From: a virus
Length of the DNA stretch: 22,935 nucleotides
Strand: one strand, 5' to 3'
IMG/VR virus record: IMGVR_UViG_3300020442_004026
Span: 1-22,935 of that record
Shown: in pieces, positions 96 to 22,935 of the stretch
Position numbering within the stretch: the stretch's first letter is position 1
Layout: each line of letters begins with the position of its first letter
Made by a program: the position numbers and the translations under genes
The notes under the pieces: model-generated
Told to the model about the DNA's origin: nothing
Databases searched by the model: none
What the model saw: the letters and a program-made list of their open reading frames with translations, nothing else

Positions 96-768
96 ATTTT
101 AATTTCAAAGAGATTAGGAATCTCGTGATGTTGCTGACAGAAACCACATCAAACTGAAGAAGATCACCAGCAACTATAGTTGTGTTCCAGTTGGTAAGAA
201 CGTCATCTTTCAGCTTCGTATTATTTATCATCTGAATATTTCCACCGCCCAAGATCGAAGTAAACGTAGGGTATGTGGTGAAATCTGCCTTTTGAATATC
301 GAGAACTAGATCACCCTGTTGTTCAGAGTAAATTACAAGTTGTTCGATAACTCCACTTACATCAATAGTAATAAATCCCTTATCACCAGGTGTCATTGCA
401 AGGTTGCCGCTATCGACAACATAGTTCAAAGTTCTGGTTAAATCTGCAGTAGTAGCAAGTGCAACAATCGAAACTGTAGTGGAAGCAGCGGGTGCTGTTG
501 TGAATACGATGTTGGTTCCAGAAACTACATAATCTTGATCTGGTTTTTGTGCAGCATTACCTAAAATAACAATTAGTTGTTGTGCATTTCCTGGGGTATA
601 TGCGTTATTATCCTTTTTCAATGCAAAACTCGTTGCTACCCCATCAAACTGGGATGCAATACTATCAAGGATAATATTTCCATACTGAATCGATTTAGTG
701 GGGACTTCGTAGTCAACACTAATTCTGTATGGATCGTTGCCAGCTAAACTTACTGCGTTGATGCTCAT
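91..768 (-). CDS. Probable virion tail-appendage protein, 225 aa
   Basis: The protein is beta-rich, without signal peptide or membrane segment. Residues about 33-104 form a module with QFDG, a run of hydrophobic strands, LIVILGNAAQ, a DYVVSG turn and a following AP turn. A closely similar module occurs in the giant protein at 12830-13090. Residues about 125-225 (TPGDKGFITIDVSG, EQQGDLVLDIQKADF, LTNWNTTIVAGDLLQFDV, ending ISLKLKL) resemble a C-terminal beta-sandwich that ends many phage tail and fibre proteins. A peripheral tail or host-contact role is therefore inferred; no enzyme motif is visible. The ATG overlaps the stop of the preceding gene as ATGA, and AGGGG lies 7 nt upstream, which supports this start. 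Exact partner and location in the virion are unknown. Confidence 0.8.
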   Translation of the reverse strand: MSINAVSLAGNDPYRISVDYEVPTKSIQYGNIILDSIASQFDGVATSFALKKDNNAYTPGNAQQLIVILGNAAQKPDQDYVVSGTNIVFTTAPAASTTVSIVALATTADLTRTLNYVVDSGNLAMTPGDKGFITIDVSGVIEQLVIYSEQQGDLVLDIQKADFTTYPTFTSILGGGNIQMINNTKLKDDVLTNWNTTIVAGDLLQFDVVSVSNITRFLISLKLKL

Positions 769-1100
769 TTCGTTACCCCTGGAGTTACCAGAACATTACC
801 TTGAACCACTCTAGTTCTGTAATCGTTCGGTGAAATTAGAATGACATCATATACATATCTTCCACCTTCAATTGCTGCAGTAGCAGTGTAACCCATAGAA
901 ACCTGAACAATTCCTTGCAATCTATCAGGAAAAGATAGAGTTAGAGGAAATGCAGTTGATGAAGATGGATGTTTTCTGATGGAAGAAATACCACTATAAC
1001 CAACCATATTTAATGGCGAACCATTAGAGTTCGCTAGGGAAAAAGAGGCAGTAAAATCCGCCCCTTGTTCCAAAACCAGATTTACAACCCTTGCTGCCAT
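765..1100 (-). CDS. Small beta-sandwich tail protein, 111 aa
   Basis: The sequence has a layout common among small phage and prophage tail proteins: LEQGADFTASFSL, then a GSPLNMVGYSG turn, an IRKHP strand, a GIVQVSM strand, ATAAIEGGRYVYDV, and a final GNVLVTPGV. It looks like a single Ig-like or jelly-roll type beta domain; the fold is inferred from the pattern, not computed. There is no signal peptide or catalytic motif. It is followed by the 225-residue gene with a 4-nt ATGA overlap, so the two are probably translated together and may act in one appendage. No clear Shine-Dalgarno precedes the ATG. A late-promoter-like octamer lies 21 nt upstream. The exact function is not known to me. Confidence 0.75.
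   Translation of the reverse strand: MAARVVNLVLEQGADFTASFSLANSNGSPLNMVGYSGISSIRKHPSSSTAFPLTLSFPDRLQGIVQVSMGYTATAAIEGGRYVYDVILISPNDYRTRVVQGNVLVTPGVTK
776..780 (-). promoter_or_regulatory. Shine-Dalgarno-like AGGGG of the 225-aa gene
   Basis: AGGGG ends 7 nt before the ATG at 768. It lies inside the 3' end of the 111-residue gene, so both an own ribosome site and coupling through the ATGA overlap are possible. Confidence 0.5.
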
Positions 1101-7300: not shown

Positions 7301-8888
7301 GTTTTTGACCATTAACACGTAGTGGTTCTCTTTGATTGAAAGATCCAGAAACCTGATACAGAACCATTTGAGTATCTGTACCAGACATCGCAGTCTTCAA
7401 ATAACCACGAGCATTGGAATTGACACCTTCAATCAATGCTGGCAGGGCAACTGCTTTAGCTTCATTAAGTGTGATGTAAGTGTAAGTATTAACATCATAC
7501 AGAGAAGCTACAAAAATAGTGTCAGCACCAGAATATGAATCATTCTTTAGCTGCATGTCATAGACTCTAGCAACACCAATGGGAATACCACTAGCAGTTC
7601 CTGGACTTGCAGTTCTCTTACTATAAAGTGTTACCTGACTACTAGTTCCATATCCAACTTGAGTACAACCATAAACATTATTCAGTTCAATCTGATTGCC
7701 AAAAGCGAAAGGAATAGTCGTATCTAGTTCTTGTTGAGTAGTTCTTGGTTTAGGTACATCAACAAAAACTGTATTGATGGTTTCTACTTCATAACCTTTT
7801 ACGTATGCTTTACCAGGAGAAAGTTGAAGTGCAAGGAGATCTGGGGATGGAGTATTACCCTGTGAAGTAGTTTCATTGGGTCCATAAATGCCGTTATTAC
7901 CAAGACTATCGTTTACAGACTCTTTAGCAATAACTCTGAATGGATTTACATAATAATTACCAGATTCATCATAAGTTCTTCTAGCAAGTTCATCTGTAAT
8001 TAGAGAACTTACGTTTTGTTTTTTGGAGAACTTTAAGAGAACGCCATTCTCAATTCTCATCAACTCGATGAAAGCTTCATCGTTGGTATCTGTTAGAGGT
8101 TTCTTTGTAAGTTCAGTAGAAATCTTCAGTCTATCTGCACCTGGTGCAGCAAAGTTAGAGAATCCTCTAGCATTATCATATAGATCTGCGTTCTTCTGAG
8201 AAGCAACAGCAATCTCTTCGTTAATGAATAGACCAACTCTATAACTTGGAGAGTTGTCGTATTGATCTAGAAGAATAGTTTGAGATTTTACGTCAACGAA
8301 GAATCCTCTGATAAAATATACACCCTCTTCAATTTTTGCAGCAGAACCCGTTCTGATAGCACCAGAAACAATTGCAGTTGCAAAAGAAGAATCTTCCTTA
8401 ATAATGGAAAGACCATAGTCAATATTTTGTAGAGAAAGAAGATTCTCACCATCTACAAAAGTATTAGTTACAAAGTCGCCTTCTCCAGCGCTCTGATATT
8501 TTACATATAAAGTATAATTTCCTTCTTCCGACTGGGTGTCTGAAATGTAGTTTTCTACCTTCGCAGTTACACCACTAATTTCGCCCTTGATAAGTTGACC
8601 AACTAGTTTGTCAATATACAAAGAAACATCGATACCAAGGTGATTGGCATCGATTTGGACACAAGTATACTCTGGGTCGTATGCAATACTACCAGGAATG
8701 ACAACTTCTCCTTCTTTGAAGAAGTGTTTACCAAATTTTTCAACCTGATTCTGGAGAATCGACTGCATCGTCGTCAATTCTCTTGCTTGAATCGGAGTTC
8801 CTGGTTTGAATAGTACTCGTTTATAATTTTTATCTACATCAAAATCGTCAAAATATGGAGAAGCATTGAGGTTCGTATTTTGTGCCAT
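1371..8888 (-). CDS. Giant DUF4815-type tail/baseplate structural protein, 2505 aa
   Basis: Residues 1 to about 420 match the DUF4815 type of marine phage tail proteins: NASPYFDDFDVDKNYKRVLF, PIQARELTTMQSILQNQVEK, later GKAYVKGYEVETINTVFVDV. A second familiar block is at about 1105-1135 (RFRMQDIARMEDRLKNVEYY). Others are at 1413-1440 (MRSRNIEFVARRLKPTTKLF), 1669-1840 (DPLAQSFEVPDERGVFIS, then GSLFKSQNGATW) and the end (LKIWMTGSNSAYVPKIKDLR). Between them are beta repeats, including GGTGY near 1960 and an EVIKYTGVS module near 2105-2150. A 33-residue Lys-rich stretch begins at 1324. There is no signal peptide, membrane segment or enzyme motif. GGAG lies 12 nt upstream within the gp8 3' end, a long spacing. 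It follows gp8 by 6 nt, where T4 has gp9 to gp12. A role as baseplate-peripheral or fibre-bearing protein is inferred. Confidence 0.88.
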   Translation of the reverse strand: MAQNTNLNASPYFDDFDVDKNYKRVLFKPGTPIQARELTTMQSILQNQVEKFGKHFFKEGEVVIPGSIAYDPEYTCVQIDANHLGIDVSLYIDKLVGQLIKGEISGVTAKVENYISDTQSEEGNYTLYVKYQSAGEGDFVTNTFVDGENLLSLQNIDYGLSIIKEDSSFATAIVSGAIRTGSAAKIEEGVYFIRGFFVDVKSQTILLDQYDNSPSYRVGLFINEEIAVASQKNADLYDNARGFSNFAAPGADRLKISTELTKKPLTDTNDEAFIELMRIENGVLLKFSKKQNVSSLITDELARRTYDESGNYYVNPFRVIAKESVNDSLGNNGIYGPNETTSQGNTPSPDLLALQLSPGKAYVKGYEVETINTVFVDVPKPRTTQQELDTTIPFAFGNQIELNNVYGCTQVGYGTSSQVTLYSKRTASPGTASGIPIGVARVYDMQLKNDSYSGADTIFVASLYDVNTYTYITLNEAKAVALPALIEGVNSNARGYLKTAMSGTDTQMVLYQVSGSFNQREPLRVNGQKLGRTIKEVRDYGFGDVKQLVSLDGNMTADIRLSQPLAIAPQGTDFTITAAAGGESDVTCSSNTFGVGIQTGDILAYNKKGETDITLNRVKAVNATGKEITLEATTSVTGVSIGALPSSDIETASLFKLVPELFNAKDSYLFAELEYADVATVDLSQGDLVFKKSYDVTISGNALSATLESDPNIVLEPFDEEDYTLVYNDGTIEGLEQDNAFISGKTVTLGGLSQNGAAVLTATLRKNKLKSRNKVYNRCATLKVERSNTEKSGTGAKTNGDGLTYSRVYGTRVQDNEISLLVPDVQTVLGVFESDGANEPTLPKLTLENLNANILNGIQGEQIVGQDSEAIAVLVSNNGSNEVDIVYQNENSFIKGEKVVFQESNLTANVTKFTEGDKDISNDFIFNPAQYLEYADHSFLIRKEGVTPPTKKLKIVFNHFYIEPSDDGDITTVTSYDPSVYTAELPFIDFYRANEILDARPRVKAYDLAVDTLSPFEYSARTFETANGSTPFFLSRDKNIKVSYDYYLGRIDKLFVNRYGEFFLKQGVPALNPRNPEDVPTALEIATIEMPPYVYNIKDITIALTDHKRFRMQDIARMEDRLKNVEYYTSLSLLESETKNLTLRDSATGLDKFKTGFFVDNFRSTSAGSLGDPMHKCSIDMEEGHLRPQHYSTQIDMLLGSEAVVGTADGAANPDADLRFVKQLGTPNSVKKGDVICFKYSHEKWLENKFATRYENVNPFHVVNWIGAIELNPATDTWIDTKKTKKTIDQEGNYESTIQELGIDTNTGLSPIQWGAWETTWTGKKVIGKKNMGSIKVGSKKTGTSTHKGKQVKGRGIPITTTTTFRDKYTKFTNVTTLTTTKQAREGIQYKVSEVFETVELGPKVVSTEVLHTMRSRNIEFVARRLKPTTKLFPFFDNVLMEKYTVPKLIEIQMISGTFQVGEDITGNEGTHAIKARLAKPNHKYGPYKNPDQTYTINPYKTGQTIPGSYSSTSTILNLDTASLELQSASGYYGNIVKNMKLKGKTSGAIAKVTDVRLVTDNAGTLIGSLFIPDPKQTSKPEFETGTKTFTLTTSKENSTISGATDSTAESTFTASGTLQNIEETTLRIRNAQVDRLIKTDEQTLKEKNTTTKASTTFKDRTVKQTRWVDPLAQSFEVPDERGVFISKIEVYFRTKDTQGLPVTGQIRTMQTGLPTTEILPFGEVVLEPVDVETSKTGTVPTTFEFPSPVYLETGQSYCFVLLSASNEYTVFISRMGEEDVTTVDKPESEKIIVSSQPLLGSLFKSQNGATWDPSQLEDLKFTVYRSKFETGETTFRFYNPDLDLGNGQIATLKNNPADTFSRSALVGIGTSLSSSEQTDLTPGVTMLQKGNSGFSATLDSVVGSIGIGSALSLTAVGSGFTTPYTAYDNVSLIAITGEGTGAKVELSVQNGVAIAATVSAGGTGYASGDALTINYDETDGIGKNLILSIPEEVGAIGEFNGFILTNIQGEIGVNATDEVFYVGTSSTISIPNANVTFNSILQDGRHFKVTHRNHGMYDTQDRVVLYGFEPDTKPVQLTANYNSSSTGNLTVESVGIFTSFENLPVDSLNPGYVLIDDEVIKYTGVSTSSGALTGITRGVGESKPGDHETGDSVFKYEMAGVSLRRINRQHGMEDTDFSKYPIGLDNYYIKWNAGTNDGKATDRGNNNPNNFPKLYFNESKSCGSYDVVPLSTNLEKGPKATQNITYDAFLPNFQMMLPEGTNITAKARTFSGSTPDSSLSAYIDQGFEDCAIGETNELTSPRVIASPTNEDRYLQDFPGKKSFTVELTFSTDDDFVSPMIDLDRVSLILINNRINEPIKNYATDFRANSLTEDPTSAVYLSKIVELAKSADSLKVYFDAFKHPSSDIRVGYRLFRVDAPQEPLWELFPGFENLDVNGQVIDQSNNDGHPDTRVPSSSSIDDFGSYEFTIEHVPQFEGFQLKIWMTGSNSAYVPKIKDLRAIASI

Positions 8889-8894
8889 TTTTTA

Positions 8895-10490
8895 TTAAAA
8901 CTCCAGAATGATCTTGATGTCTTCTTTTTGGCTAGCAGATCTAGGGATCGGCGGTCTATTATCTATGTAGATAATTTCTCCCGACTTAGTATCATACTCT
9001 GCGGTAGAAACACCTGCAGAAAAGTCCAGTCCTAACTGGTATATTCTATTATTTATTGTGGTTGTGATACCACCAAATGTGGTATTGATCTGAAGTGCAG
9101 GACCAATTAGAGATTCACTTTCAATAGTAACACCATAACCAACATCAGGTGTCGCTGTAAACGGAATGATGTTGAATGCGGTTTCACTAGAAGCGAGACC
9201 AGTTGGTTGATAGTACTTCAGAACACCTGTTACATTATCCCAAGATGCAACATAACCAATAGCAGTTGAACCTAGTCCAACAGTCTGTTTAATAACAGAG
9301 TCAACAGCATATGTGGTTGTAGTAGTTACACCAGCAAGTTTAAGTGCATTCAGTCCACTGACAAGTGCGGTATTGAGATTTTCTACCTGACTTCCAACAA
9401 CTTTTGGATTTCTCATTACCCCGACTCTAGCAAAATCATTACCCAAAATGATATCTGGGTTTGAATCGAGAGTTTCAAATCTAGAATACAATAGTACTCT
9501 ATAAGCACCCAGTTCACGATAGATATCATATCCATGTCCACCTTTTGGTGGGATAATAACTTTGAATGCAGAGAAGGATGTAGTACCTACACCAACATTA
9601 GATAGTTTTTCAAGTGGTCCAGCAGTTTCGGAACCAGGAGCACCTGGATAGAACTGAATTGTTCCATATGTGTATCCCTTACCACCATCAGTCACAAACA
9701 CTTCGGATACTTTTCCGAAAGAGTCAACAGTGATAGTTGCTTTACCTCCAGTACCATCACCCAAGATGGGTACATTTGAGAAGGAAGTAGAAATTGGCTG
9801 ATAATTAGATCCTCTATTGTCAATCAAAATGGTTTCGATTTTTCCATCAATTGCATTATCCTTGACAGAAATACTTTCACCCAGTTCACCCCAGTTTTCT
9901 GGAACTGGAACATATTCAATAGAGTCGAACTTAACAATCTCAGATGGTTTGATCGTATAAAGGTATTTCCAAATATATCCATCTCCAGAGGTACCTGCCG
10001 CTCTGGGTTCTAGGTCAACAAATGTTGGTTCATCGAAAGATGGACGACCCTTGGGGTTTTCTGGGTCTGTTCCGTTCGCCAAACAAGCATAGACTCTGAG
10101 ATCATCATTAATTACATAGTAATTACCTTCATATAGTGAGGATGAACCAGTTACAGGAGTTGGGTTATATACTGTATAATCATGTCTATACATTTCATAG
10201 GTTTGACCAGCAACCCACTCGACTTTTCTAACAAGTCGTCTAACATCTTGAGAGGTAATTTGCTTCAATGCAATTATACTCTCCCTCACCTGGATTTCCT
10301 CTTGGAATCCATCTAAAGGTGAAGGAGGATCTGTCGTCCAATCCGCAAAACCGCCCGTTTCGGGGGCGGTTGCGTTTGGAAGACCAATAAACGTATAGTA
10401 CTTATTGGTAGTGTCCCCAACTCCAGAAACACTCTTCAAAAAGTTCTCAGCGTTTAGGATTCTAAACTGGTCAGATATAATTGCAGGCAT
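8895..10490 (-). CDS. 8: Baseplate wedge subunit gp8, 531 aa
   Basis: In T4, gp8 is a dimeric wedge protein that joins gp7, gp10 and gp6 to build the baseplate. The N-terminal 200 residues follow the T4 gp8 plan: a start near FRILNAENFLKSV, YYTFIGLPN, a DPPSPLDGFQEEI stretch, MYRHDYTVYNP, and YYVINDDLRVYACL. GDGYIWKYLYTIKPSE follows at 169-184 and EYVPVPENW at 192-200, matching the T4 segment GDGYVWEYLFEIPP. T4 gp8 is 334 residues, so this one carries about 200 extra. Part of the excess is a GGxGY beta module near 245-285 (TDGGKGYTYG). There is no obvious Shine-Dalgarno; a late-promoter-like octamer lies 29 nt upstream. Its place between two giant structural genes fits a wedge operon. The gp8 call is firm; copy number and contacts are assumed from T4. 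Confidence 0.9.
   Translation of the reverse strand: MPAIISDQFRILNAENFLKSVSGVGDTTNKYYTFIGLPNATAPETGGFADWTTDPPSPLDGFQEEIQVRESIIALKQITSQDVRRLVRKVEWVAGQTYEMYRHDYTVYNPTPVTGSSSLYEGNYYVINDDLRVYACLANGTDPENPKGRPSFDEPTFVDLEPRAAGTSGDGYIWKYLYTIKPSEIVKFDSIEYVPVPENWGELGESISVKDNAIDGKIETILIDNRGSNYQPISTSFSNVPILGDGTGGKATITVDSFGKVSEVFVTDGGKGYTYGTIQFYPGAPGSETAGPLEKLSNVGVGTTSFSAFKVIIPPKGGHGYDIYRELGAYRVLLYSRFETLDSNPDIILGNDFARVGVMRNPKVVGSQVENLNTALVSGLNALKLAGVTTTTTYAVDSVIKQTVGLGSTAIGYVASWDNVTGVLKYYQPTGLASSETAFNIIPFTATPDVGYGVTIESESLIGPALQINTTFGGITTTINNRIYQLGLDFSAGVSTAEYDTKSGEIIYIDNRPPIPRSASQKEDIKIILEF
10349..10371 (-). other. GC-rich stem-loop inside the 5' part of gp8
   Basis: The minus-strand RNA can form a perfect 8-bp stem (AACCGCCC with GGGCGGTT) around a 7-nt loop CCGAAAC, followed by two more T. 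It is at codons 41-48 of gp8 (TAPETGG), in a gene that otherwise uses AT-rich codons. It resembles a weak intrinsic terminator or a pausing or stability element, but the U tract is only four, two of them paired. Function is unproven. Confidence 0.45.
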
Positions 10491-10519: not shown

Positions 10520-10527
10520 TATTTATG
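10520..10527 (-). promoter_or_regulatory. 8: Late-promoter-like octamer CATAAATA
   Basis: The minus strand reads CATAAATA, 7 of 8 to the T4 late consensus. It overlaps the TAA stop of the giant gene (10523-10525) and ends 29 nt before the gp8 ATG. The 32-nt spacer downstream is AT-rich with no other feature. It would drive gp8, the DUF4815 protein and the 82-residue protein. Confidence 0.5.
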
Positions 10528-13500
10528 GACTTAATAGTCCCCTTGTTCTGAATACTTTAGGTGAAGTGCTCAGTCCAGTTAGACCATTATCACGATAAGA
10601 ATCAAAGTTCACAGGATTCAGTGTTGTAAGTGCTCTATTTTGATAATCATAGATCTTACCCCATGAATATCTACCATAGAACTCATTGGTACCAATACCA
10701 CTGAAGTCCTCACCTCTTGCGTAGACTTGAACAAAGTTGTTGTTGTCTCCGAGAGATGGAACGAAGTGACATGTTACGGTTACGATACCAGCAGAAGCAG
10801 GTGTTACGAAATCCGCACGATATACACCATCAAGGAAACTCTTCGCTGTACCAACAACAGATGCAGGGTAATTAGCCATACCACCAGAGAGTGTGGAAAT
10901 ACCCGTGAGTTGAGTACCGATTCCAACATTACTATCGGTGATGACGAAGTAATCTCCCTTACTGATCTGAGATGCAGTGACTCCATAATCATTTAGTGCG
11001 GAATAACCAACACCCAGGGTTCCATTATCATATTGTTCAGATTTTAGAACAAACTCAATCTTAGGTGAAGTGGTTCCAATTCCAGGCGTGCCCGCGAGGA
11101 AAGTATTAACACCAACGATTACGCCGTGATCACCTTCAGCCTTGATAGATCTAATATTCTCAAACTTGTAAGTATCAGATTGGACCATAACGGATGGAAC
11201 ATTAGTTTGAGAATATCCAAAACCACCATCAGTAACCGTAATACTGGTTACAATTCCATTCAGAACAGAAGATTCTGCAGTCGCTCTATGTGTGATTGGT
11301 GTTGCGTAGATTGCAGTCGCGCCGGCGCCCGCGGCAATAAATGCACCATCTGTAGAGAATCCTACATCATGGAAGATAGTTCTCAAGTCATTATTTTGTT
11401 TAGTACCTCTTTCATCCCAAACAGCAAGGTCAAAGGAGTAGAAGAGTTTTCCACTATCGGTGATTGCGACATAAAGATCATCATGATATTGAAGATCAAC
11501 AATGATATTAGAAGCACCGATATTGTTGTTGACAACAACGTATTGATCTCTGGTAACAGATTTAACAATTGTTCCATTTTCGCCCGCGGCAATGAAATTA
11601 GATCCATCCCAGATAATACATTCCAAGTTCCTAATTGTTGGAGTTGGATTCTGTGACCAAATTTCTGCGGTGGAAGAATTGATAATCTTACCTCCACTAC
11701 AAACACCAACGAAATAACCAAGTTGTGGACTATGTGCGACTGCATTGATGTTATTAAGAATTCCAGTGTATCTGTTGAAGAAACACGTAGATCCAATACC
11801 AGTTGCAACGAACGCAGAACCACCTGCACCAACTGCAACATACTTGTCATTTAGTGGTTCATAGATAATATCATTGATTGTACCTGTGAACGTAGTCAGG
11901 TTGGTATTAATAACACCAAATCCTGCGAGAGATTGTTGTTCAAAGATTGGGAGTCTTTCAAACGAAGTAACTGCGGTATCCGATGCAGTTGCTTTCCAGA
12001 TCATTGCGGATTGACCAACTGCAACAACATGATCAGTATTTCCAAGACCCGTAGAAACTACGGAGTTGAAGTGATACGTATTACCCGCGCCCGTGACGAT
12101 TTCAGAAGCAGACCATGTTTCGAGATCAAGTGAAGATGCAAATAGTGAACTATTACCAACTGCAACAAATCTTCTCTGTGCAGTTCCCTTATCAATGTGA
12201 TTGAAAATAGTGTAAGTTGTAATACCAGTGATTCCACTAATGGTTCCGCCTTCCCAGTTAAAGATAGGATCTTTTCTTGTGATCGCGGAAGCAGAAATTG
12301 TTACGATTGGACTTAGAGTATTTGCATAACCAACTCCACCACTGGATACTCCAATGGAGGTGATGCTGGAAGAAGTAGAAACATTTGCAACCGCAACGGC
12401 ACTTTCTGTTTCTTTATCCTCGATGATCAAAATGTCTCTAACGTTCTCATTCAAATTATCCAAATCAGTAAAGATCGGGAATGCATTGTCTACGTAGATT
12501 GTAGTGTCACCTGGTAGAATCTCATTGATAATAGTTGCACTTGGTCTGATTACGGATGTGTATTGAGGTCTAGATTTGGGGAATAGTGATCCAGTAATGA
12601 TCTTATCATTCTTCTGTTTTCTCCAAGTCAGAGGTCTACGCTTATCTGTATTGGTATCGATTCCGATACTACCATAAACAAAGGTTTCTAGTTGATCAGT
12701 AGCAACAATCTTTTGTACTGTTCTATTGAACTGATCAATGTCATAAGCATCAAGACGACTTTCGTTGATTTGAATTTGATCACCAACTTTAATAGTCTTA
12801 GGTGGATCAATTTCTTCAACGTCTGCAGAAGAACCTCTGTAGTAGAGGATACTGCAACTAGATCCTTCAAGTGGTGCCTCAGTGAAGAAGATTCTGGATC
12901 CTCTAAACTCATATGCAACACCTGGGACTTGAAGAACATCATTCAGATAGATGAAGATGTTATTGGTAACGTCTAGATCACTTCCATCAGGAACTCTCAG
13001 GGAGAGAATCTTCTTGACACCATCAATATTTGCACTCAAAGTAAACTTCTTCTTGAATCCGTTGAACTGATCCTCAATGCTGTTGAAAGCAATGAATTGA
13101 CCAGGATAGAATCCAAAGAACTTGTCGGTTTGAACTTCAGTGATCTTGAGTTGGAACTCTTCAAATTGTCTGAAGGTTGTTACGCCCGTGTTTGCAGTAT
13201 AGAAGTGTGGAATCGTATTGACTCCTGCTCTTACTGTGTATTGGGTGGAACTATTAACCTTGGTAACCAGGAAGTCCAGTGCTCCATCAGTACTATCTTC
13301 GGTATATCTTAGAACTCTCTGTACACTTGGTACCTTTTGAGTCATGCCGACTCTTTGTGCAGTACCGCCAGAAACATAGTCATGTGCGATGGTAGAAATA
13401 CCTGCATTGAAAGTGAAAGAAGTTGTAGATCCAACTGCATCAACCTTGAATGTGCTTCCGTGTGGAGAAGAACCTTCATATGGGAACTTATTCGTGGTGA

Positions 13501-16500
13501 AACCAACGCTTGCAGTACCACCAGTATCATAAGAATGTGGAATTGTGGAAACACCGATATTGATTACCATGGTGGATCCAGTGGTTCCCGCCATCAACTT
13601 AAATGTATCATAGGTTCCAGATAGTGCATTAGGAGAAGATGCAGGATATGCATCACCATAGTCATCAGTACCTGCAGGATATGGGAACTTAGTGGAAGAG
13701 AATCCAGCGTGTTCCGCAGTACATGTCAGGAAGATATCTGCAAGTCTTACATAATCATCAACTGTTTGTCCATGAGCAGCATTGGTGGTAATAGTGACAA
13801 TACCAGCGACTTCATTATAATCAAGTGCGGTTACATTGTAAGTGGTAATTCCAGTCGCATGTGCAGGGCAATTCAGAATAATGTCTTTAAGATTCACCCA
13901 CTCACCAACGGAAAGATCATGATCTTCTGTAAGAGTGATTGTAGTAACACCAACAGATTCGGTATAATCGAAACCATATAGAGGAATTGCACCAAATCCT
14001 TCATATGAGTGTACAATAGTTGAAACACCTGCGTTGACACGGAAAGTATTTGCGTCATCAACTTGAGTGACCTTGAAGGAGAAACCAGATGGAGAAGATG
14101 CAGGATATGCATCACCATAAGTGTTTACACCTGCACGATATGGGAACAGGGTTGAGGTAATGCCTGCATAGTTATCATAGTTTGCATCGGTACACTTCAG
14201 TTTGAGATCCGCAAGAGTTACCCACTCATTTGCGACCAAGTTATGTGCATCATGAGTTTCAATAACACAAACACCAGAGTTTTGTGAGTAGTTGAACGTG
14301 GAAATACCCAGTTCAGTGTAACCTGCGAATACATGAGGAATGGTGGAAACACCTGCCTGCATCGTGAAAGTAGTTACACCTGGAGAAGAGATTGCAGGGA
14401 AGACGAAACCATATGGAGCAGTTCCATCTGGGAAGATGTCTGTTGTTACTCCTGCATGTTCTTCAGTACAAATGAACTTAACGTTGTGTAGATAAACTTC
14501 GTCAGCAGTCTTATTTGACTTAATACCCTTGACCGTGATCGCGTTAGGAGTTGCACTTACAAATGTATGTGCGCTCGTATCTGTTCCACCAGCACCAACA
14601 TTGATTGTAACTTCATCACCAGTGACATCCGTAATCTCTAGGAACTTACCAGCAGCTGGATCAGTGGATCTTGGATATGTGTGGTTGGTAGCATTGCCAT
14701 CCAAAGCACAAGTAAATGTGAGTGAATTATCTTCTAGTCTGATGAAGTCTCCTTCTTCCAGGCTGTGTCCATAAACTGTAAGTGTAGTAAATCCAGTATG
14801 TGGACAATAGGTTGCAGTCGAAGGTGTAAGTCTTCTCTCAACATCAGAGGTGAGAACACCATGTGGATCCCAGGTAGTTACTGTGCAAATACCAGTTACG
14901 TTGTCATAAGTGAAGGACTTAATACCAACTTCATCATATCCACAAGTCAAACCAACACCAGTGATTCTTACATTATCAAGAACAGATAGATTATGTGCAG
15001 AACCAGTTGTAATGGTAGTGAATCCAGTAGTCTCATCATAGACTAGATTTGTAATCGATAGAGAATCGGTTCTAAATCCAGAACCTTCGATAAGACCAGC
15101 TGCCTTGATAACATCACCAACCTTATATCCAATACCAGGATTATCAATCTTAAAGTCAATGACACTGGAACCCTGACCAACAACTACAGAAAGACGTGCA
15201 TCTTGTCCATCACCACTGGTTCCGCCAGTATATTCTGCGGTCAGATTACTATATCCTGTTGGAATACCAATTCTGATTTCTGGTAGAGATGTTCCAGTGA
15301 ATCCAGTTCCTGCATTTACGATTGTCAGTCCATTTACTGTACCAGCAGCACTGACTGTTGCAGTGATTGTTGCTCCATATCCGATTGTGGACGCAATACT
15401 GACATCAGGTGCAGACTGATATCCAGTACCACCTTCGTTGATTGTAATAGTGTCAATTTGACCAAAATCATCGATGGTGACTGTTGCAGCTGCGCCAATC
15501 TTTGGTTCATATCCAAAGCTGTTGGTGATTTCAACTTTGGAAATCTTACCAGCCTTTGGTACTCCAGAGAGGAACTTCAGAGTGTTCACAGAAGGTCCAT
15601 CAACTGTATAATCAACGATTGGATCCTGTGGTACATTGTTAATCAGTACGATAGGATTGTTGTTGATATCAACAGCAGAGTTTACATCGTTGAAGATTGT
15701 TGTTGTCGTCTGATTTTGAGACTTAATTGCAAATTCAGTTGCAGCAACACCAGTGAAAGCTAGAGAAAGGTCATCGAATAGAAGATTCTTATCTTCTGGT
15801 TTAGCTGCATCAAAAGTTCTACTGAAGACTCTACCACCAAAGATAGAACCAGTCTGTAGACCTGCAGGTCCAATCTTACCGAATGGTGGGGATGAGAAGT
15901 GAATGACATCACCAACAATGTTGAAGTCACCTGTTAGAACTGTTACTGCTGCTCCAACTGTATGTGCTGCAGCAGGTGTTCCAAATGAACCTCTTTCCAG
16001 AACAACTTCATTAGTTGCACCAACTCCGATAGACTTAATAAGTGCATATTCTGCACCAATATTCAGAACATCATTAGTTCTGACAGAAGAAACTCCAGTA
16101 GCAAGTTTAGCAATTGTAGTAGTTGCAGATCCGATAGAATTCTTAAGATCTACACTTAGAGACTTGAATCTCAGTGGAGTCTGAATGATACCATCGATAG
16201 TAATAATCGAACTTGCATTTGGATCCTTATATTGAACACTATAAGTACCAACACCGACATCAGTTACATCGATGAAAGTTGCGGTGGTAGAAAGACCAAA
16301 TAGTTTGATCTGATTATCAGTAACCTTGAAGCAATATACCGTAGAAGGCATAGTCTTCGCACCCATTAGTGTTGGGGTAATTGTAATATCATCGGTAGAA
16401 TCTGTACCACCGATACCTGACTGAGGAATTGTAATTACAGAAGTTAAAGCATATCCAGAACCACCATTGACAACATCAACATTACTGATGTATCCAGAAG

Positions 16501-19500
16501 AACCTCTGGTGACATTGAAGATTGCACCAGTACCACCGGCAGGATCAGTTCCTGCAGTGACATTAGAGTAAGATTGATTTGCCTGAGTAGCGACTGCAGA
16601 AGGTCCAGTCTTAGTAACAACGAAAGTCAAGTCGTTTGCAGGAGACGCTGCTTGCATCTGTGTTCCAGCAATTGTGATTGTATCACCTACTGCGTATCCA
16701 CTACCACCCGCTGTTGGTTGAATAGATGTAGAGATAGGAACACCAGAACCATCATAGTTGATTGATACTCTAAACTCTGCGTCTGTTCCAGTACCACCAT
16801 TAGATCCAATACACTGAACAAATTGTGTTGTGGAGTTTGCATCAACTACAGATGTTGTAGAAATACCACTAATGGTTCCAGAGATTGCAATGTTGTATCC
16901 ATTTTCAAGAACTGCCGTACCACCGAAGGTATCGGAGATATTCATTACAACATCGAGAGTTGCATCTTCGACGAAAGAAGTTGTTCCGATGCCAACGTCA
17001 TCACCATTCTCCTTAACAAAGAGAAGTTCTTGACCAGTTTGGAAATTGTGATTAGCAATATTAATAATATTGTTGGCGATATCAAATGCACCCTCACTGA
17101 AGACATGCTTGAACAGACTTGTGTTATTATTCTTAAGTCTGAATGTGGATAGTCCAACTGCAATTCCACCTCTAGTCTTAGAGGGATAATAAATTTCTGG
17201 TGCAACATCTGTACCAAATCCAATAATTCCAGTAATAATTCCAACATAATTTGCAAGAGAGAATCTTACATCAGCACAATCTGCAGTACCGAATCCAACT
17301 GTTGGAATTCCTGCAAGACTGCTATTTCCAATTGCGACTGTTAGGATACCAACTAAGGTATCAATATCAGTTTGAATATCAGCATAATTGCTAGGATCAG
17401 TGTTTACACCAGTTACTGGATCAATTGGAATTCTTAAATCCTTATAGTTAAGATTATTGGTAATTGCAAGTTGCATATAGTCCGCAGAGGACTCGAAGAT
17501 GTAGATAGACTCATCTTCTTCACCAATAAGACCATCAAGTTTTTGAGTACCATCTGGTTTAAAGTAGAACTTGGTGTTTCTTACTGTATGTTGATTAGTA
17601 TCATATGAAATATCCTGTGCAACACCATCAACAATGTATTGAAGATCGCGACGACACTTCAGACCACCTGTAGTGTAAGTTCCAACATTTGCAGTTGGTA
17701 GACCAATTGTAGATCCAGCAGAAATTACGTCAACTGTAATTTGAGTTAGAGTTGTGAGAGTTTGTTGAACGTCTGCACAAGCAGCAGTAGATGTAATTGC
17801 AACATTAGGTCCACCACTACCAAAAGTAGAAGGTCCAACAGGTGCGGTTAGATCTTTAATGGTCAGTTGGTTGGAAACCGCCTTCTCCATGAAGATTCTA
17901 GCCTGACTGAATGCATAGATGGTCTGTGCCTCTTCACCAACAAATGTGCGTTCTGGATCGGTGATTGGATTACCAGCACCATCAAAATAGAAACCAGAGA
18001 AATCTCTAGTGTAAGTGTTACCACCAAGGAATGTGTCAATGGAAACTGCATCAACCAGTTTACCCATTTCACGTTTGTACTTGTCTTCCTTATTACTAAT
18101 GCTATTATAGATTAGAACTGTTTCATCCCATGCCTCATCAATGATTTCCTGTCTGTTATTTTGAATCATTCCATAGGAACGAAGATATCTAGACTTCGCT
18201 TCAGTCTGGGGAGAACCAGGGAAGTAGAAGTTTGGATATGCCTTAGAAACAGATGCAAGAGACTTGTCTAGAATTTCTTCTTTGTTGAAAACAATCAGAT
18301 CTCTAGAATCTTTGTTTCTAGTCAGATAGAAGTTTGCTGGATCATCAATAACCTCAAAGTTAAATCTCTGTTTGACTGCAGTCTGATAGAGAGTGGGAGG
18401 AGTTTGATTATTAATTACATATTGACCAATAAACTTGACATAGTGATATGCATAAAGGGTCTGGGCTGTTTCATTTGCAACATAAGAAACCCCTGCATTC
18501 CAATAGGTTAAACCCGCTTCGACAGACTTATTATTAGAATTATACTTAAGGTCATGTGCAACTGCATCGACAATAAATCCAGTATCTCTTAAACACTTCT
18601 CTCTACTATAAGTTGTACTCAATCCAATATTTGGATAGTTGTACTCAACTTTAGCAACAACTTCTTCTTGAATGAATTCTCTATTCAATCCAAGTAAATC
18701 TGCAGCATCTGCATATCTACCTCTAAGTTGTTGAGTAACAGTTCCATCAAACTGATCTGAGATATCATCAACCGCAAGAACTTTATTTGTTCTGTTAATG
18801 ATATATGGTTGCAGTTCTACACCCTCAGGGAAGAAGACCTTTTTAACGCTTCCGTCTGCAAGAGGTTCATCTTCATAAACAAGACCGAAATTAGTCTTAT
18901 CGAAGAAACTCATTTCACTATCAATATTGACACTCAATAGAGGTGTAGTATCTGCAAGAGTAACCTTCATCGAAGTGGACTTTGCGATACCAGAATTTAC
19001 TTCTGCAAGTGTTGGTTGGGTTTCAATATTATAGTTGGAGAACTCTTTGAATCCAGATGGATGGACAATAGATTTAACAGATTCTTTCCAGGTAGAATAT
19101 GGAATAGTAGACTTGAGTTCATAAGAGAACTTCTGGAAGTAATAGTTATCAGAAATACTTTGTAGATAATCATTTAGAATACCAGAAGACATATCTGCAA
19201 CTTGGGTCTTGGTTCTAGAAACGCCAAGATTTGCCTTCAAGGTAAAAGTATTAAAATAATCTACAGTTCCAATAATCTTGGAGTTTTCACCTCTTAGTTT
19301 ATCATTGACAAACAAGTTACCGATAGAGTTATTAATTCTGAGTTGGTTGACATCATTGTCCCAACCATTCTCCATTACGTTACCACTGAAGAATTGTGCA
19401 GTAACTTTCTCTCCAGACTGATATCTAACATCATCACTGAGAACCATATTAAAGACAGGCATGTCTTTTTTGTTGATGATGGTTCCTTGAGTAATTTCAC

Positions 19501-22500
19501 CATCATAATCACCAAGAGTTCCAGTAGAAATTCCAGTGAGATCACATGTAACAGTTTGGTTAAGAGTACTTACTCCTGTTACAGGATAGAATGCATAATC
19601 ATACTGAATGGAGTTGAAGTTATTCTCACCCGCGATTCTAGAATCTTTAGTTAGTCTGCAGTTTTCTACAAATACTTCATCACCGATTGCGAATGGGAAA
19701 GTATATCCAGTTTGACCATAACCGAGGGTAATGAATGGATTGACTTCTGGATCATTATTAAGTTCAAAAGTAACTACATCATTACTATGAGTAACTTCAT
19801 CAATATCAAATCCATTACTATTGCGAATAGGAATAATTGTGAGTGGATCTGCAAGTGCAGTATCATTCTTATCGACAATAACATCAACAACTGAACCAAA
19901 TTGAGTAACTGCAATAAGTTTAATAGTTGGTTTTGCTGGTACTACGAGTTCAGGAGCACTAGAATAATTATTACCACCTGTAGAAATTGCAACCCTGTCA
20001 ATTGTTCTAATGTTCTTAATACCTGCAACAGTTGGAACACTCAGGGTAGGTGTTAGAGTAGGATCTGTTGGATAATCAAATCCATCCTTAATTCTCTCTA
20101 GACTTTCAACTCTACCGATAGTAGAAGATTCAAATCTAACAACACCATCTGTACCAGCTGCAGAAACAATACTGGAAACTGTTGGTAGTTTTGTATATCC
20201 TCTACCAGCAAAGTTAATTCTAACCTTACTAATAGGTCCAGTGACGTTCTGAGAGGTCGTAGTATACTCGTAAGTAGAATTCCCAATAATAGATTTCTCA
20301 ACGATGTTCAGGGGGTTTCTAACAACGAATGTAAGTCTCTTGTCATTATCTGTAGAGAGACCAACTACACTAAATTCATCGTTCAAACCATGAGGTTTAA
20401 TTGTAATCTTGTTTGCAGAAACAATACTATCGTCAGAAGAAATTTCTTTCTTATATTGTTCTGCAGCACCCTTAGGAACTAAGGTATAGAAGAAACTATC
20501 TGGTACGAACTTACTTCTAGTGTCAACAGTGATCTTAGCATCTGCAGTTCCAGGTTGACCATCTCTATCGATAGCAAAACCATCTGCGTCAGTTCCAAGA
20601 AGATCAAGTCTCTTAGTGAGATTGACATCCTTAGAGAATATCATATCAAGTTGAGCAAGAGTCGTGTCAGAAACATCAAACTCAATAATAGTTCCTCTGA
20701 AGAAATCTAGAGGTGGATTAATTAGATGGAACATATGAGCAGTTCCAGATCCAACAGCAGTCAGATCAACCGCTGATGTTGTACTGATGTCTGCTTCAAA
20801 CTCACATAGTTTAATCTTATCTGTAGAATCTTTCAGAATGTAATATGTTTTTCCGTTGTATAGTCCTGTGATTGGGGTTGCTGCATAATAAACAACTTTA
20901 TCACCTGTCTTGAGTTTCTTGTACTTAGAATAACCAGAAATATCAATAGAGTTTGTTGTTAGATCAACTTTAGAATCTGCAAAAGAAATATCATCAACCA
21001 GTACCTTTCTATTAATAGTATCAAGTTTAATTTTATAACTATCCGTCGTAGTACCAGTAAACTTCAGTCTGAAGTCATCACCAATCTGAAGTCCATGTGC
21101 TGTTTTAGTTGTAATAATGCCAATATTTCTAAAGACATCACCAGTAATTCTTTGATTAGTTTTAGTTAGAGAATGTGCAGCACCAACAATACCAAACTGG
21201 TCATCGAAAGGCCAGAACTCAAGGGAGTTTTTGGTTGTTCCAATACCATCAGAACTATTTGTCGTAAATCCGACTGTTGATAGTCCAATGTAATTGAGAC
21301 CCAAGTTTACTGTATAAAGTTCTTGTCCATTGGTCAATCCAAAAGATTGAGCAACACCAACATTGTTGACATATAGTGGAGCACCATTTGTACCAACGTT
21401 ATAGATTACCTTTTCACCAGTAAAGAAGTTATGATTTGGAATGTAGATACTTCTGGTTGGAATGAATCTGTTTTCAAAACTTGTGGTACCAAATCCAACA
21501 ACAGTTCTATCTGTACCTGCAACACCAGTACCTACAGTTTCTTTTGGATCAAAGAATGTTGTTGTATTCTCAAAGGTGTAATCATCAATCTCACCAACGA
21601 TGCTGAATGAGAATCTATTTGGTAGAAGTGCTACGAGACCATCTCCAATAGTATGAATACCTGTGTTATTAACTCGGTTTACATAGAAACCAGATCTTTG
21701 AGAAGAAACACCAGTGATTAATAGTGTTTCACCATCGACACTAATAAAATCATTAGATTTAAATCCAGAAGTATCCTTGACTTTAATAAACGTGGAAACT
21801 CCCGTTGCTCCAGCATCTAGAATATCTTCTAGAAGTTCTGTTGACTTGGATTTAACTCTAGCTTCTTTGACACCATTAATTGCTCTTGCAGTAATAGTAG
21901 AAACTCCAGAAATAAAGACATCTTCCAGATCCTCAATGTTGTGAGGTTGTGAACAGATTGCTTCAATTTCTGTACTTCTGATTCTAAATTCTACATTGTT
22001 AATTTCAGTTTCGGTAACACCAACAGATTCAATTTCTTTACCACCAAGTTCAGATACAGAAACCGATGCACCACCGCCTCCTGAATTTCCATTATCAATT
22101 TGTACAATATCATCAATCTTATAGTTCTTACCAGCAGTAAAGACAATTGCATTTTCAATAGAAGATGTCTGAATGTCAGTTACTCGGAATTCCTGTTTGA
22201 AAGATTCACCAACTCTATCAATGTATGGATAATCGGAGTTTGGATTGGTTAGATAGTAATTAGAAACGTTTCTTACGAGATCGGTAGTAAAGATGGTCGA
22301 ATCATCTTGGTTATAAGTTGGTAAGAAGTTATTTGAAATTGGATTATCATAGAAACTTGGACCAATCAGATATGGATATACAGGAGTAGAAATTTGGGAT
22401 TGGTCAACACTAACAGTGTAGAAATATGCATATGTTCCATCTGGGAACTGAGGAGTTACGCAGAATCTACCATTATGTTCGTCTAAATCTCCAGAACCAT

Positions 22501-22935
22501 CATAAACATAGTCATTAGTAAAGTAACCCTGTTGTTGAGGAGGTCTTAATTGTGGATTGACTGTTGGGTTATTAGTATAACTGGATGTCATTCTACGAAT
22601 TGGACCACCTTCAGGTTTATCGTAACCATAAGGTCCATAGATGGGGTTACCATCATATGCAAAACCTAGAATGGGCGAGTGTTGAAGATTTGTGGTTGCT
22701 TCTTTGTTTAGGATATTGAAGTTATCCTGAGTTTCAAATCTTAAAACTTTAGAAGGATAGAAAGTGAAGAACTGGAGCCCAAAGTTTGGATTGAAGGATG
22801 GATAGAGTACACCATCATCATCTTGATTAATTGTATTCTTTTTCTTAATAACTTGGTTTACTTTCCACCTCTTGACATTAGCAATAAACTTGGCATTAAT
22901 GCCTCTATTTTGAATCGATAAGAATGTATTACTAC
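10523..22935 (-). CDS. Giant modular baseplate/tail protein, at least 4136 aa (5' end outside window)
   Basis: The frame is open from the TAA at 10523 to the window edge. The ATG at 22591 is internal, because the 114 codons before it are uninterrupted and encode half of a YHYH-type domain. Numbering from the first full codon at 22933, the order is as follows. A YHYH-like domain spans 85-173. Beta modules follow, including ExxxITGVS near 385-430 and IPNHNFFTGE near 495. Helical repeats lie at 1432-1892, and a second NHNFQTG near 1960. GGxGY repeats are scattered throughout. Cys/His/FPY modules lie at 2649-3262, a QFNG module at 3282-3368 and a seven-repeat propeller at 3588-3877. The C-terminus carries YGRYSWGKI. 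No membrane segment or enzyme motif was seen. It lies just before gp8, the T4 position of gp7 (1032 aa), so a wedge role with appendage domains is inferred. It could instead be an added marine-phage baseplate component. Identity as a virion structural protein is likely; the exact equivalence is not shown. Confidence 0.85.
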   Translation of the reverse strand, partial: SNTFLSIQNRGINAKFIANVKRWKVNQVIKKKNTINQDDDGVLYPSFNPNFGLQFFTFYPSKVLRFETQDNFNILNKEATTNLQHSPILGFAYDGNPIYGPYGYDKPEGGPIRRMTSSYTNNPTVNPQLRPPQQQGYFTNDYVYDGSGDLDEHNGRFCVTPQFPDGTYAYFYTVSVDQSQISTPVYPYLIGPSFYDNPISNNFLPTYNQDDSTIFTTDLVRNVSNYYLTNPNSDYPYIDRVGESFKQEFRVTDIQTSSIENAIVFTAGKNYKIDDIVQIDNGNSGGGGASVSVSELGGKEIESVGVTETEINNVEFRIRSTEIEAICSQPHNIEDLEDVFISGVSTITARAINGVKEARVKSKSTELLEDILDAGATGVSTFIKVKDTSGFKSNDFISVDGETLLITGVSSQRSGFYVNRVNNTGIHTIGDGLVALLPNRFSFSIVGEIDDYTFENTTTFFDPKETVGTGVAGTDRTVVGFGTTSFENRFIPTRSIYIPNHNFFTGEKVIYNVGTNGAPLYVNNVGVAQSFGLTNGQELYTVNLGLNYIGLSTVGFTTNSSDGIGTTKNSLEFWPFDDQFGIVGAAHSLTKTNQRITGDVFRNIGIITTKTAHGLQIGDDFRLKFTGTTTDSYKIKLDTINRKVLVDDISFADSKVDLTTNSIDISGYSKYKKLKTGDKVVYYAATPITGLYNGKTYYILKDSTDKIKLCEFEADISTTSAVDLTAVGSGTAHMFHLINPPLDFFRGTIIEFDVSDTTLAQLDMIFSKDVNLTKRLDLLGTDADGFAIDRDGQPGTADAKITVDTRSKFVPDSFFYTLVPKGAAEQYKKEISSDDSIVSANKITIKPHGLNDEFSVVGLSTDNDKRLTFVVRNPLNIVEKSIIGNSTYEYTTTSQNVTGPISKVRINFAGRGYTKLPTVSSIVSAAGTDGVVRFESSTIGRVESLERIKDGFDYPTDPTLTPTLSVPTVAGIKNIRTIDRVAISTGGNNYSSAPELVVPAKPTIKLIAVTQFGSVVDVIVDKNDTALADPLTIIPIRNSNGFDIDEVTHSNDVVTFELNNDPEVNPFITLGYGQTGYTFPFAIGDEVFVENCRLTKDSRIAGENNFNSIQYDYAFYPVTGVSTLNQTVTCDLTGISTGTLGDYDGEITQGTIINKKDMPVFNMVLSDDVRYQSGEKVTAQFFSGNVMENGWDNDVNQLRINNSIGNLFVNDKLRGENSKIIGTVDYFNTFTLKANLGVSRTKTQVADMSSGILNDYLQSISDNYYFQKFSYELKSTIPYSTWKESVKSIVHPSGFKEFSNYNIETQPTLAEVNSGIAKSTSMKVTLADTTPLLSVNIDSEMSFFDKTNFGLVYEDEPLADGSVKKVFFPEGVELQPYIINRTNKVLAVDDISDQFDGTVTQQLRGRYADAADLLGLNREFIQEEVVAKVEYNYPNIGLSTTYSREKCLRDTGFIVDAVAHDLKYNSNNKSVEAGLTYWNAGVSYVANETAQTLYAYHYVKFIGQYVINNQTPPTLYQTAVKQRFNFEVIDDPANFYLTRNKDSRDLIVFNKEEILDKSLASVSKAYPNFYFPGSPQTEAKSRYLRSYGMIQNNRQEIIDEAWDETVLIYNSISNKEDKYKREMGKLVDAVSIDTFLGGNTYTRDFSGFYFDGAGNPITDPERTFVGEEAQTIYAFSQARIFMEKAVSNQLTIKDLTAPVGPSTFGSGGPNVAITSTAACADVQQTLTTLTQITVDVISAGSTIGLPTANVGTYTTGGLKCRRDLQYIVDGVAQDISYDTNQHTVRNTKFYFKPDGTQKLDGLIGEEDESIYIFESSADYMQLAITNNLNYKDLRIPIDPVTGVNTDPSNYADIQTDIDTLVGILTVAIGNSSLAGIPTVGFGTADCADVRFSLANYVGIITGIIGFGTDVAPEIYYPSKTRGGIAVGLSTFRLKNNNTSLFKHVFSEGAFDIANNIINIANHNFQTGQELLFVKENGDDVGIGTTSFVEDATLDVVMNISDTFGGTAVLENGYNIAISGTISGISTTSVVDANSTTQFVQCIGSNGGTGTDAEFRVSINYDGSGVPISTSIQPTAGGSGYAVGDTITIAGTQMQAASPANDLTFVVTKTGPSAVATQANQSYSNVTAGTDPAGGTGAIFNVTRGSSGYISNVDVVNGGSGYALTSVITIPQSGIGGTDSTDDITITPTLMGAKTMPSTVYCFKVTDNQIKLFGLSTTATFIDVTDVGVGTYSVQYKDPNASSIITIDGIIQTPLRFKSLSVDLKNSIGSATTTIAKLATGVSSVRTNDVLNIGAEYALIKSIGVGATNEVVLERGSFGTPAAAHTVGAAVTVLTGDFNIVGDVIHFSSPPFGKIGPAGLQTGSIFGGRVFSRTFDAAKPEDKNLLFDDLSLAFTGVAATEFAIKSQNQTTTTIFNDVNSAVDINNNPIVLINNVPQDPIVDYTVDGPSVNTLKFLSGVPKAGKISKVEITNSFGYEPKIGAAATVTIDDFGQIDTITINEGGTGYQSAPDVSIASTIGYGATITATVSAAGTVNGLTIVNAGTGFTGTSLPEIRIGIPTGYSNLTAEYTGGTSGDGQDARLSVVVGQGSSVIDFKIDNPGIGYKVGDVIKAAGLIEGSGFRTDSLSITNLVYDETTGFTTITTGSAHNLSVLDNVRITGVGLTCGYDEVGIKSFTYDNVTGICTVTTWDPHGVLTSDVERRLTPSTATYCPHTGFTTLTVYGHSLEEGDFIRLEDNSLTFTCALDGNATNHTYPRSTDPAAGKFLEITDVTGDEVTINVGAGGTDTSAHTFVSATPNAITVKGIKSNKTADEVYLHNVKFICTEEHAGVTTDIFPDGTAPYGFVFPAISSPGVTTFTMQAGVSTIPHVFAGYTELGISTFNYSQNSGVCVIETHDAHNLVANEWVTLADLKLKCTDANYDNYAGITSTLFPYRAGVNTYGDAYPASSPSGFSFKVTQVDDANTFRVNAGVSTIVHSYEGFGAIPLYGFDYTESVGVTTITLTEDHDLSVGEWVNLKDIILNCPAHATGITTYNVTALDYNEVAGIVTITTNAAHGQTVDDYVRLADIFLTCTAEHAGFSSTKFPYPAGTDDYGDAYPASSPNALSGTYDTFKLMAGTTGSTMVINIGVSTIPHSYDTGGTASVGFTTNKFPYEGSSPHGSTFKVDAVGSTTSFTFNAGISTIAHDYVSGGTAQRVGMTQKVPSVQRVLRYTEDSTDGALDFLVTKVNSSTQYTVRAGVNTIPHFYTANTGVTTFRQFEEFQLKITEVQTDKFFGFYPGQFIAFNSIEDQFNGFKKKFTLSANIDGVKKILSLRVPDGSDLDVTNNIFIYLNDVLQVPGVAYEFRGSRIFFTEAPLEGSSCSILYYRGSSADVEEIDPPKTIKVGDQIQINESRLDAYDIDQFNRTVQKIVATDQLETFVYGSIGIDTNTDKRRPLTWRKQKNDKIITGSLFPKSRPQYTSVIRPSATIINEILPGDTTIYVDNAFPIFTDLDNLNENVRDILIIEDKETESAVAVANVSTSSSITSIGVSSGGVGYANTLSPIVTISASAITRKDPIFNWEGGTISGITGITTYTIFNHIDKGTAQRRFVAVGNSSLFASSLDLETWSASEIVTGAGNTYHFNSVVSTGLGNTDHVVAVGQSAMIWKATASDTAVTSFERLPIFEQQSLAGFGVINTNLTTFTGTINDIIYEPLNDKYVAVGAGGSAFVATGIGSTCFFNRYTGILNNINAVAHSPQLGYFVGVCSGGKIINSSTAEIWSQNPTPTIRNLECIIWDGSNFIAAGENGTIVKSVTRDQYVVVNNNIGASNIIVDLQYHDDLYVAITDSGKLFYSFDLAVWDERGTKQNNDLRTIFHDVGFSTDGAFIAAGAGATAIYATPITHRATAESSVLNGIVTSITVTDGGFGYSQTNVPSVMVQSDTYKFENIRSIKAEGDHGVIVGVNTFLAGTPGIGTTSPKIEFVLKSEQYDNGTLGVGYSALNDYGVTASQISKGDYFVITDSNVGIGTQLTGISTLSGGMANYPASVVGTAKSFLDGVYRADFVTPASAGIVTVTCHFVPSLGDNNNFVQVYARGEDFSGIGTNEFYGRYSWGKIYDYQNRALTTLNPVNFDSYRDNGLTGLSTSPKVFRTRGLLSP
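11305..12171 (-). repeat. Seven-blade beta-propeller-like repeat in the giant protein
   Basis: Seven blade signatures occur in order, spaced about 39-60 residues. They are FVAVGNSSLFASSLDLETW (from 12171), HVVAVGQSAMIWKA (12031), KYVAVGAGGSAFVAT (11849), YFVGVCSGGKIINSS (11721), FIAAGENGTIVKSV (11602), LYVAITDSGKLFYSFDLAVW (11477) and AFIAAGAGATAIYAT (11348). The pattern hydrophobic-A-V/A-G-x-x-G-x-I-x-x-S-x-D-x-x-x-W is that of BNR / Ycf48-like propellers, and seven is a common closed number. No sialidase-type catalytic set was recognised, so a binding role is more likely. Confidence 0.7.
11316..11335 (-). other. GC-rich patch with palindromes in blade 7
   Basis: Eighteen of these 20 bases are G or C by my reading, including the perfect 10-bp palindrome GCGCCGGCGC (11319-11328) followed directly by CCGCGG (11329-11334). 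The codons are GCC, GCG, GGC, GCC, GGC, GCG for AAGAGA, whereas the rest of the gene mainly uses GCA/GCT and GGT/GGA. It stands out sharply from its AT-rich surroundings. Confidence 0.6.
12830..13090 (-). repeat. QFNG / AYEFxG module, related to one in the 225-aa protein
   Basis: The segment reads NSIEDQFNGFKKKFTL, then IFIYLNDVLQVPGVAYEFRG, SRIFFTEAPLEGSS. It aligns by eye with the QFDGVATSFAL, LIVILGNAAQKP, DYVVSG, IVFTTAPAAS series of the 225-residue protein (457-672). A third, more distant copy in this giant (about 15580-15690) has IVLINNVPQDPIVDYTVDG. It is probably a small beta domain used as a structural building block. Confidence 0.65.
13632..13660 (-). repeat. 29-bp direct repeat, copy 1
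   Basis: An exact 29-bp match to 14091-14119, in the same frame, encoding YGDAYPASSP. The two copies are 459 bp (153 codons) apart, which is about the length of one large tandem unit. Identity at DNA level implies recent duplication or gene conversion. Confidence 0.8.
14091..14119 (-). repeat. 29-bp direct repeat, copy 2
   Basis: Second copy of the repeat at 13632-13660, identical over 29 bases and also coding YGDAYPASSP. Similarity continues downstream in weaker form (GATATGGGAAC in both), showing the unit rather than the short word was duplicated. Confidence 0.8.
17260..18640 (-). repeat. Three predicted-helical repeats in the giant protein
   Basis: Three units share a plan: RD or GK, xxIVDAVxxD, an aromatic segment, then ExxxxIYxF, an amphipathic stretch and NxLxxKDL. 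Unit 1 (about 18603-18350) has CLRDTGFIVDAVAHDLKY and TLYAYHYVKFIGQYV. Unit 2 (about 18070-17850) has GKLVDAVSIDTF, TIYAFSQARIFMEKAV, NQLTIKDL. Unit 3 (about 17662-17425) has CRRDLQYIVDGVAQDISY, SIYIFESSADYMQLAI, NNLNYKDL. Units 2 and 3 are followed by CADVQQTLTTL, YADIQTDIDTL and CADVRFSLANY segments. They interrupt an otherwise beta-rich protein. Similar RDxxxIVDA repeats are familiar from cyanophage structural proteins. Their role is unknown. Confidence 0.7.
22415..22681 (-). other. YHYH-like domain in the giant protein
   Basis: Codons here give GFAYDGNPIYGPYGY, then after a linker GDLDEHNGRF, TPQFPDGTYAYFYT. The spacing and the DG-PIYGPYGY, LDExNGR and GTYxY elements are those of the YHYH family, whose biochemical role is unknown. 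The tetrapeptide that names the family is replaced by YAYF. The domain spans the ATG at 22591, which proves that codon is not the gene start. Confidence 0.75.

Follow-up and report, generated by a model that had tools for sequence, protein, structure and literature searches.

A giant structural protein of a marine cyanophage carries, near its C-terminus, an insertion that is predicted to form a seven-bladed beta-propeller with a closed ring, of the Ycf48-like/BNR type. The stretch of DNA analysed here (the window) is a viral contig 22935 bases long, with every large gene on the minus strand. Among named phages, Synechococcus phage S-SCSM2R is the closest to it (DNA 96% identical, with 98% of the searched giant gene covered), and the virus carrying the giant infects marine Synechococcus. 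The large features of the window are listed below; the remaining minus-strand genes are small virion genes.

10523..22933, minus strand: gp7-like baseplate wedge giant, C-terminal 4136 residues, with the N-terminus outside the window
10526..11266, minus strand: C-terminal region of the giant, common to 34 cyanophage records with and without the propeller
8895..10490, minus strand: gp8-like baseplate wedge gene, next after the giant (Pfam Phage-Gp8 E 1.6e-12; PHROG 438)
1371-8888, minus strand: large structural protein, annotated DUF4815 in S-SCSM2R

The giant is 93% identical in protein to its counterpart in S-SCSM2R, a protein of 5172 residues in a single reading frame with baseplate genes on both sides. 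In S-SSM7, S-CAM9, Bellamy, S-SM2 and others, its homologue has a gp6-like wedge gene on one side and a gp8-like one on the other, and its annotation there is gp7 or baseplate wedge initiator. The gene order gp6-gp7-gp8 occurs in S-SCSM2R and relatives, and in the window gp8 adjoins the giant. A profile of the N-termini of seven relatives, a part that falls outside the window, matched T4 gp7 in the PDB (E 9.4e-6 over about 70 positions). Because of this synteny and profile match, the giant, which belongs to a T4-like marine cyanomyovirus, can be assigned from sequence comparison as the baseplate wedge protein corresponding to T4 gp7, and its description as a phage baseplate giant in an earlier, sequence-only reading was borne out. 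S-SSM7 and Sf-FS3 have this sequence divided over three genes, namely gp7, a small gene and a separate carrier of the propeller; the window and S-SCSM2R have the two large parts (gp7 and propeller carrier) fused in one frame. Two gp7-like genes are also found in DSL-LC02 and B23.

Several other features were observed in and around the window. A YHYH domain (PF14240, E 9.3e-25) is encoded at 22406-22708 on the minus strand, close to where the portion of the giant inside the window begins. The motif GxSTIxHxY/F occurs four times in the giant, at residues 2861, 2969, 3127 and 3178 (about 13370-14353, minus strand), which suggests degenerate internal repeats. Folding of the giant's C-terminal domain yielded a model of low quality (pLDDT 61), without PDB matches at E 0.001 or better. 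In the protein coded at 1371-8888, the first 265 residues match 1253 phage records, far beyond cyanophages and including many Staphylococcus and Salmonella phages. For the small protein at 765-1100, minus strand, the PHROG match is to L-shaped tail fibre assembly (E 1.7e-26), with a weak Pfam match to LtfC. Just past the genes that S-SCSM2R has in common with the window lies a gene annotated 'TolB' (87252-91361 of S-SCSM2R), of which the window stops short; this name suggests another propeller.

The propeller had been proposed from seven blade signatures read in direct succession. On the minus strand these are, in order, RFVAVG, HVVAVG, KYVAVG, YFVGVC, NFIAAG, LYVAIT and AFIAAG, at residues 3588, 3635, 3697, 3740, 3779, 3820 and 3864 of the giant's frame and with motif-to-motif spacings of 47, 62, 43, 39, 41 and 44 residues. 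When a motif matrix trained on other phages only was scored over the whole 4136-residue frame, the seven motifs took the top seven positions (15.6-23.4 bits versus 9.0 or less elsewhere). Shuffling the domain 2000 times gave zero sites in 1697 cases, one in 285, two in 15, three in 2 and four in 1, and none reached seven. The succession of seven signatures is therefore confirmed. The spacing of 39-60 residues read earlier is close to the 39-62 measured here, and the S.D...W part of the proposed alternating plan stands out clearly in blades 1 and 6 alone (SLDLETW and SFDLAVW).

Structure prediction of the segment, which had been suggested beforehand as a check, returned a confident seven-bladed model. 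With 30 sequences from the window and from related viral contigs as input, AlphaFold2 modelled the residues coded at 11144-12421 at a pLDDT of 89.7 and a pTM of 0.86. DSSP of the model revealed seven strand groups, the second strand of each coinciding with a blade motif, and these form seven consecutive blade units that are four-stranded except for the seventh, with three strands. The elements of the region are as follows, all on the minus strand:

12296..12397, minus strand: beta-repeat with GGxGY signature, upstream of the insertion
About 11288..12271, minus strand: seven-bladed beta-propeller domain (AlphaFold2 pLDDT 89.7; Foldseek to Ycf48; profile to Ycf48 E 8.4e-8)
12248..12256, minus strand: short strand at an invariant Trp, ahead of blade 1 (DSSP of model)
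12101..12208, minus strand: blade 1 (DSSP of model)
11951..12070, minus strand: blade 2 (DSSP of model)
11897..11947, minus strand: extra beta-hairpin between blades 2 and 3, kept in most of the gp7 propeller family
11768..11878, minus strand: blade 3 (DSSP of model)
11654..11749, minus strand: blade 4 (DSSP of model)
11531..11626, minus strand: blade 5 (DSSP of model)
11408..11503, minus strand: blade 6 (DSSP of model)
11303..11386, minus strand: blade 7, three strands (DSSP of model)
11183..11281, minus strand: beta-repeat with GGxGY signature, downstream of the insertion

In the model, the short strand at the invariant Trp would close the ring with blade 7. Foldseek aligned the model with closed seven-bladed proteins over more than 330 columns, in keeping with ring closure in the predicted structure. 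Against the PDB, Ycf48 chains filled the first nine ranks. Against a viral library, the S-SSM7 baseplate protein, represented by a separately made prediction, was the best match over the whole model (TMq 0.88, rmsd 2.6, 429 columns). The model and these matches support a complete seven-bladed propeller. The propeller does lie at 11305-12171, where it had been placed, but those bounds are too short, the domain extending over about 11288-12271 with the closing N-terminal strand.

A Pfam scan of the entire giant missed the propeller, single-sequence searches with it gave weak matches only, and PHROG matches to it were at chance level. A profile of seven homologues was needed for a clear match, which was to Ycf48 (E 8.4e-8). 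The window propeller scores 17.4 bits against PF14870, under the Pfam gathering cut-off of 27, and the DSL-LC03 homologue scores 31.1 bits. Of the families suggested for a profile search (BNR, Ycf48-like and Kelch), Ycf48 was recovered. No Kelch was found in Pfam, where the only related match was WD40_WDHD1 at 18.2 bits versus a cut-off of 109.9, and no sialidase match was found in Pfam or the PDB. Ycf48/HCF136 (Pfam PSII_BNR, PF14870), an assembly factor of photosystem II, is likewise seven-bladed and is the best match by both profile and Foldseek; it is a free lipoprotein or lumen protein, whereas the window domain is an internal part of a structural giant. When cellular genomes were searched with the DSL-LC03 propeller, no relative turned up, so that the propeller could not be traced to a host.

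Two short GGxGY-like beta-repeats near the C-terminus of the giant flank the propeller, which is an internal insertion. Ten sequences with the propeller were examined; it occupies the same site in S-SSM7, S-SSM6a, Sf-FS3, S-CAM9, S-8S53/55/56, DSL-LC02 and DSL-LC03, and homologues are also present in many IMG/VR contigs (44 non-redundant sequences at 95%). In Bellamy, SynMITS9220M01, S-SCSM1, P-SSM2, S-SM2, B23 and AG-345-F15 the two repeats are adjacent, with a short loop only. The S-SSM7 protein SSSM7_103, annotated as a baseplate wedge initiator with no mention of a propeller, has the same propeller in the same place; it differs in that its propeller is about 33-36% identical to that of the window and its gene is separate, not joined to gp7. 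In a tree built from the region that follows the insertion, a single branch (support 77/81) separates the propeller carriers from the other sequences. This distribution is consistent with, but does not firmly show, one gain or loss.

In addition to the propeller, an unrelated domain of about 300 residues is found in RN05-S, one turn upstream and inside the first beta-repeat. S-B05 is without this insert, yet it is 99% identical to RN05-S over the 300 residues just before it, indicating that this region of gp7 can gain or lose whole domains. In Syn33, a segment of a separate structural protein matches the RN05-S domain at 91% identity, and 85 phage records contain the domain; by these matches, it is common to other cyanophage structural genes. 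It has no convincing Pfam or PDB match, and a metallopeptidase suspected from its HVFHTLHMH run was unsupported by any match in either database.

For pairs 90-99% identical, median dN/dS was 0.115 in the propeller, 0.095 upstream and 0.103 downstream, the pairs being non-independent and some contigs counted twice. At larger distances, the propeller diverges somewhat faster than the C-terminal region. A dN/dS of about 0.1, similar to that of the flanks, indicates that the propeller is kept by selection. Among the 44 non-redundant sequences, the second strands are the best-conserved parts, and the loops between first and second strands and between blades are the most variable, with no hypervariable loops. 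The near-invariant positions are for the most part structural Gly, Trp, Val and Ser, and no conserved catalytic pattern is evident in this set. Since the domain is under purifying selection and has neither a conserved catalytic pattern nor hypervariable loops, the data favour a conserved, probably non-enzymatic binder. Of the functions suggested in the earlier reading (a receptor-reading or sugar-binding head, or a platform for fibres), they agree with host binding and docking alike.

These results also bear on what else the propeller might be. An enzyme, such as a sialidase-type glycosidase acting on the host surface, would agree with the BNR/Asp-box signatures in S-CAM9, S-8S53/55/56 and DSL-LC03. 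However, the strict Asp-box S-x-D-x-G-x-T-W occurs once each in S-CAM9, S-8S55 and DSL-LC03 and not in the window, and together with the structural nature of the near-invariant positions, the lack of a catalytic set and the lack of a sialidase match this led us to reject the sialidase reading as very improbable. Still harder to credit is a mimic of Ycf48, taken from a host gene and acting on the host photosystem, although Ycf48 is the best profile and structural match and the hosts of related isolates are photosynthetic. Identity to Ycf48 is 14-18% only, and the propeller is internal to a structural protein of thousands of residues. Ycf48 binds D1 through an Arg patch (PMC10403576). By eye, in a low-identity alignment, one of the five aligned patch residues, R219 of Ycf48, has an Arg opposite it in the window and none has one in S-SSM7, so the patch is apparently lost, and this reading was also rejected.

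A spacer or stabilising insertion with no specific partner would fit both a site that accepts insertions and related phages that manage without the propeller; its retention over large divergence at a dN/dS of about 0.1, with a single change on the tree, makes this improbable. A more serious contender, which we rate as possible without being probable, is a docking platform inside the virion for a fibre, an adaptor or a baseplate neighbour, with no host contact. Strong purifying selection without hypervariable loops and the hairpin retained between blades 2 and 3 in most of the family agree with docking, as does the contact of T4 gp7 with gp8, gp9 and gp10 (PMC3004832). By contrast, relatives without the propeller still build tails, and an unsystematic look identified no partner gene that tracks its presence.

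We tentatively prefer, at somewhat less than an even chance, a non-enzymatic binding head with a partner on the Synechococcus envelope, and we consider such a host-envelope partner likelier than a virion-protein partner. T4 gp7 is a monomer with six copies per tail, lies in the wedge and is counted among the peripheral baseplate proteins (PMC3004832). If this stoichiometry holds, six gp7 copies and hence six propellers would be placed at or near the baseplate rim. The propeller would project from the wedge, its loop faces would hold a partner without cleaving it, and the partner on the envelope would be met as the baseplate lands; rim placement, copy number and binding are all inferred here. 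The binding head is favoured because baseplate propellers elsewhere have been proposed as receptor binders. The C-terminal propeller of PhiKZ gp131 is by description seven-bladed and located at the rim of a myophage baseplate, where it was proposed, without proof, to be a receptor binder or an enzyme (PMC4901313). It belongs to a different phage group, however, and is not known as a gp7 insertion. In Staphylococcus phage phi11, the baseplate propeller of Gp45 is a proposed receptor binder with a cavity that could take GlcNAc, and an N-terminal strand closes its ring (PMC4901313); unlike the window domain, Gp45 has five blades and is a trimeric receptor-binding protein in a siphophage of a Gram-positive host.

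Host binding is opposed by the lack of a hypervariable loop, which one might expect in a host-range determinant. Strain WH7803 is the recorded host of S-SCSM2R (with the propeller) and S-SCSM1 (without it), and also of S-RIM2 and Syn33 (with the other insert, in a separate protein); WH8109 is recorded for both S-SSM7 and Bellamy, the latter without the propeller. As phages with and without the propeller record the same strains, it is not required for WH7803 or WH8109. A wider proposal is that the C-terminal beta-repeats of gp7 serve as an accessory slot for unrelated 300-residue domains that differ by lineage, the Ycf48-like propeller being here an adsorption head in the wedge and not in a fibre. 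The different domain held by the neighbouring turn in RN05-S indicates that the wedge tip tolerates whole domains; even so, we regard this full proposal as rather doubtful.

Neither the propeller fold nor the general idea of baseplate propellers is new, and public databases already contain the S-SSM7 homologue. The apparently new points are the recognition of the domain as a propeller in gp7, its nature as an inherited insertion, and a second module beside it that comes and goes. No paper joining cyanophage, beta-propeller and baseplate was found in the open-access library searched, and an earlier description elsewhere is possible. To our knowledge, the attachment of marine cyanomyoviruses to their hosts is poorly known. 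The insertion that differs between the nearly identical RN05-S and S-B05 marks the wedge tip as a place of module gain or loss, and a conserved gp7 propeller with natural relatives that lack it provides a defined domain to express, image and delete.
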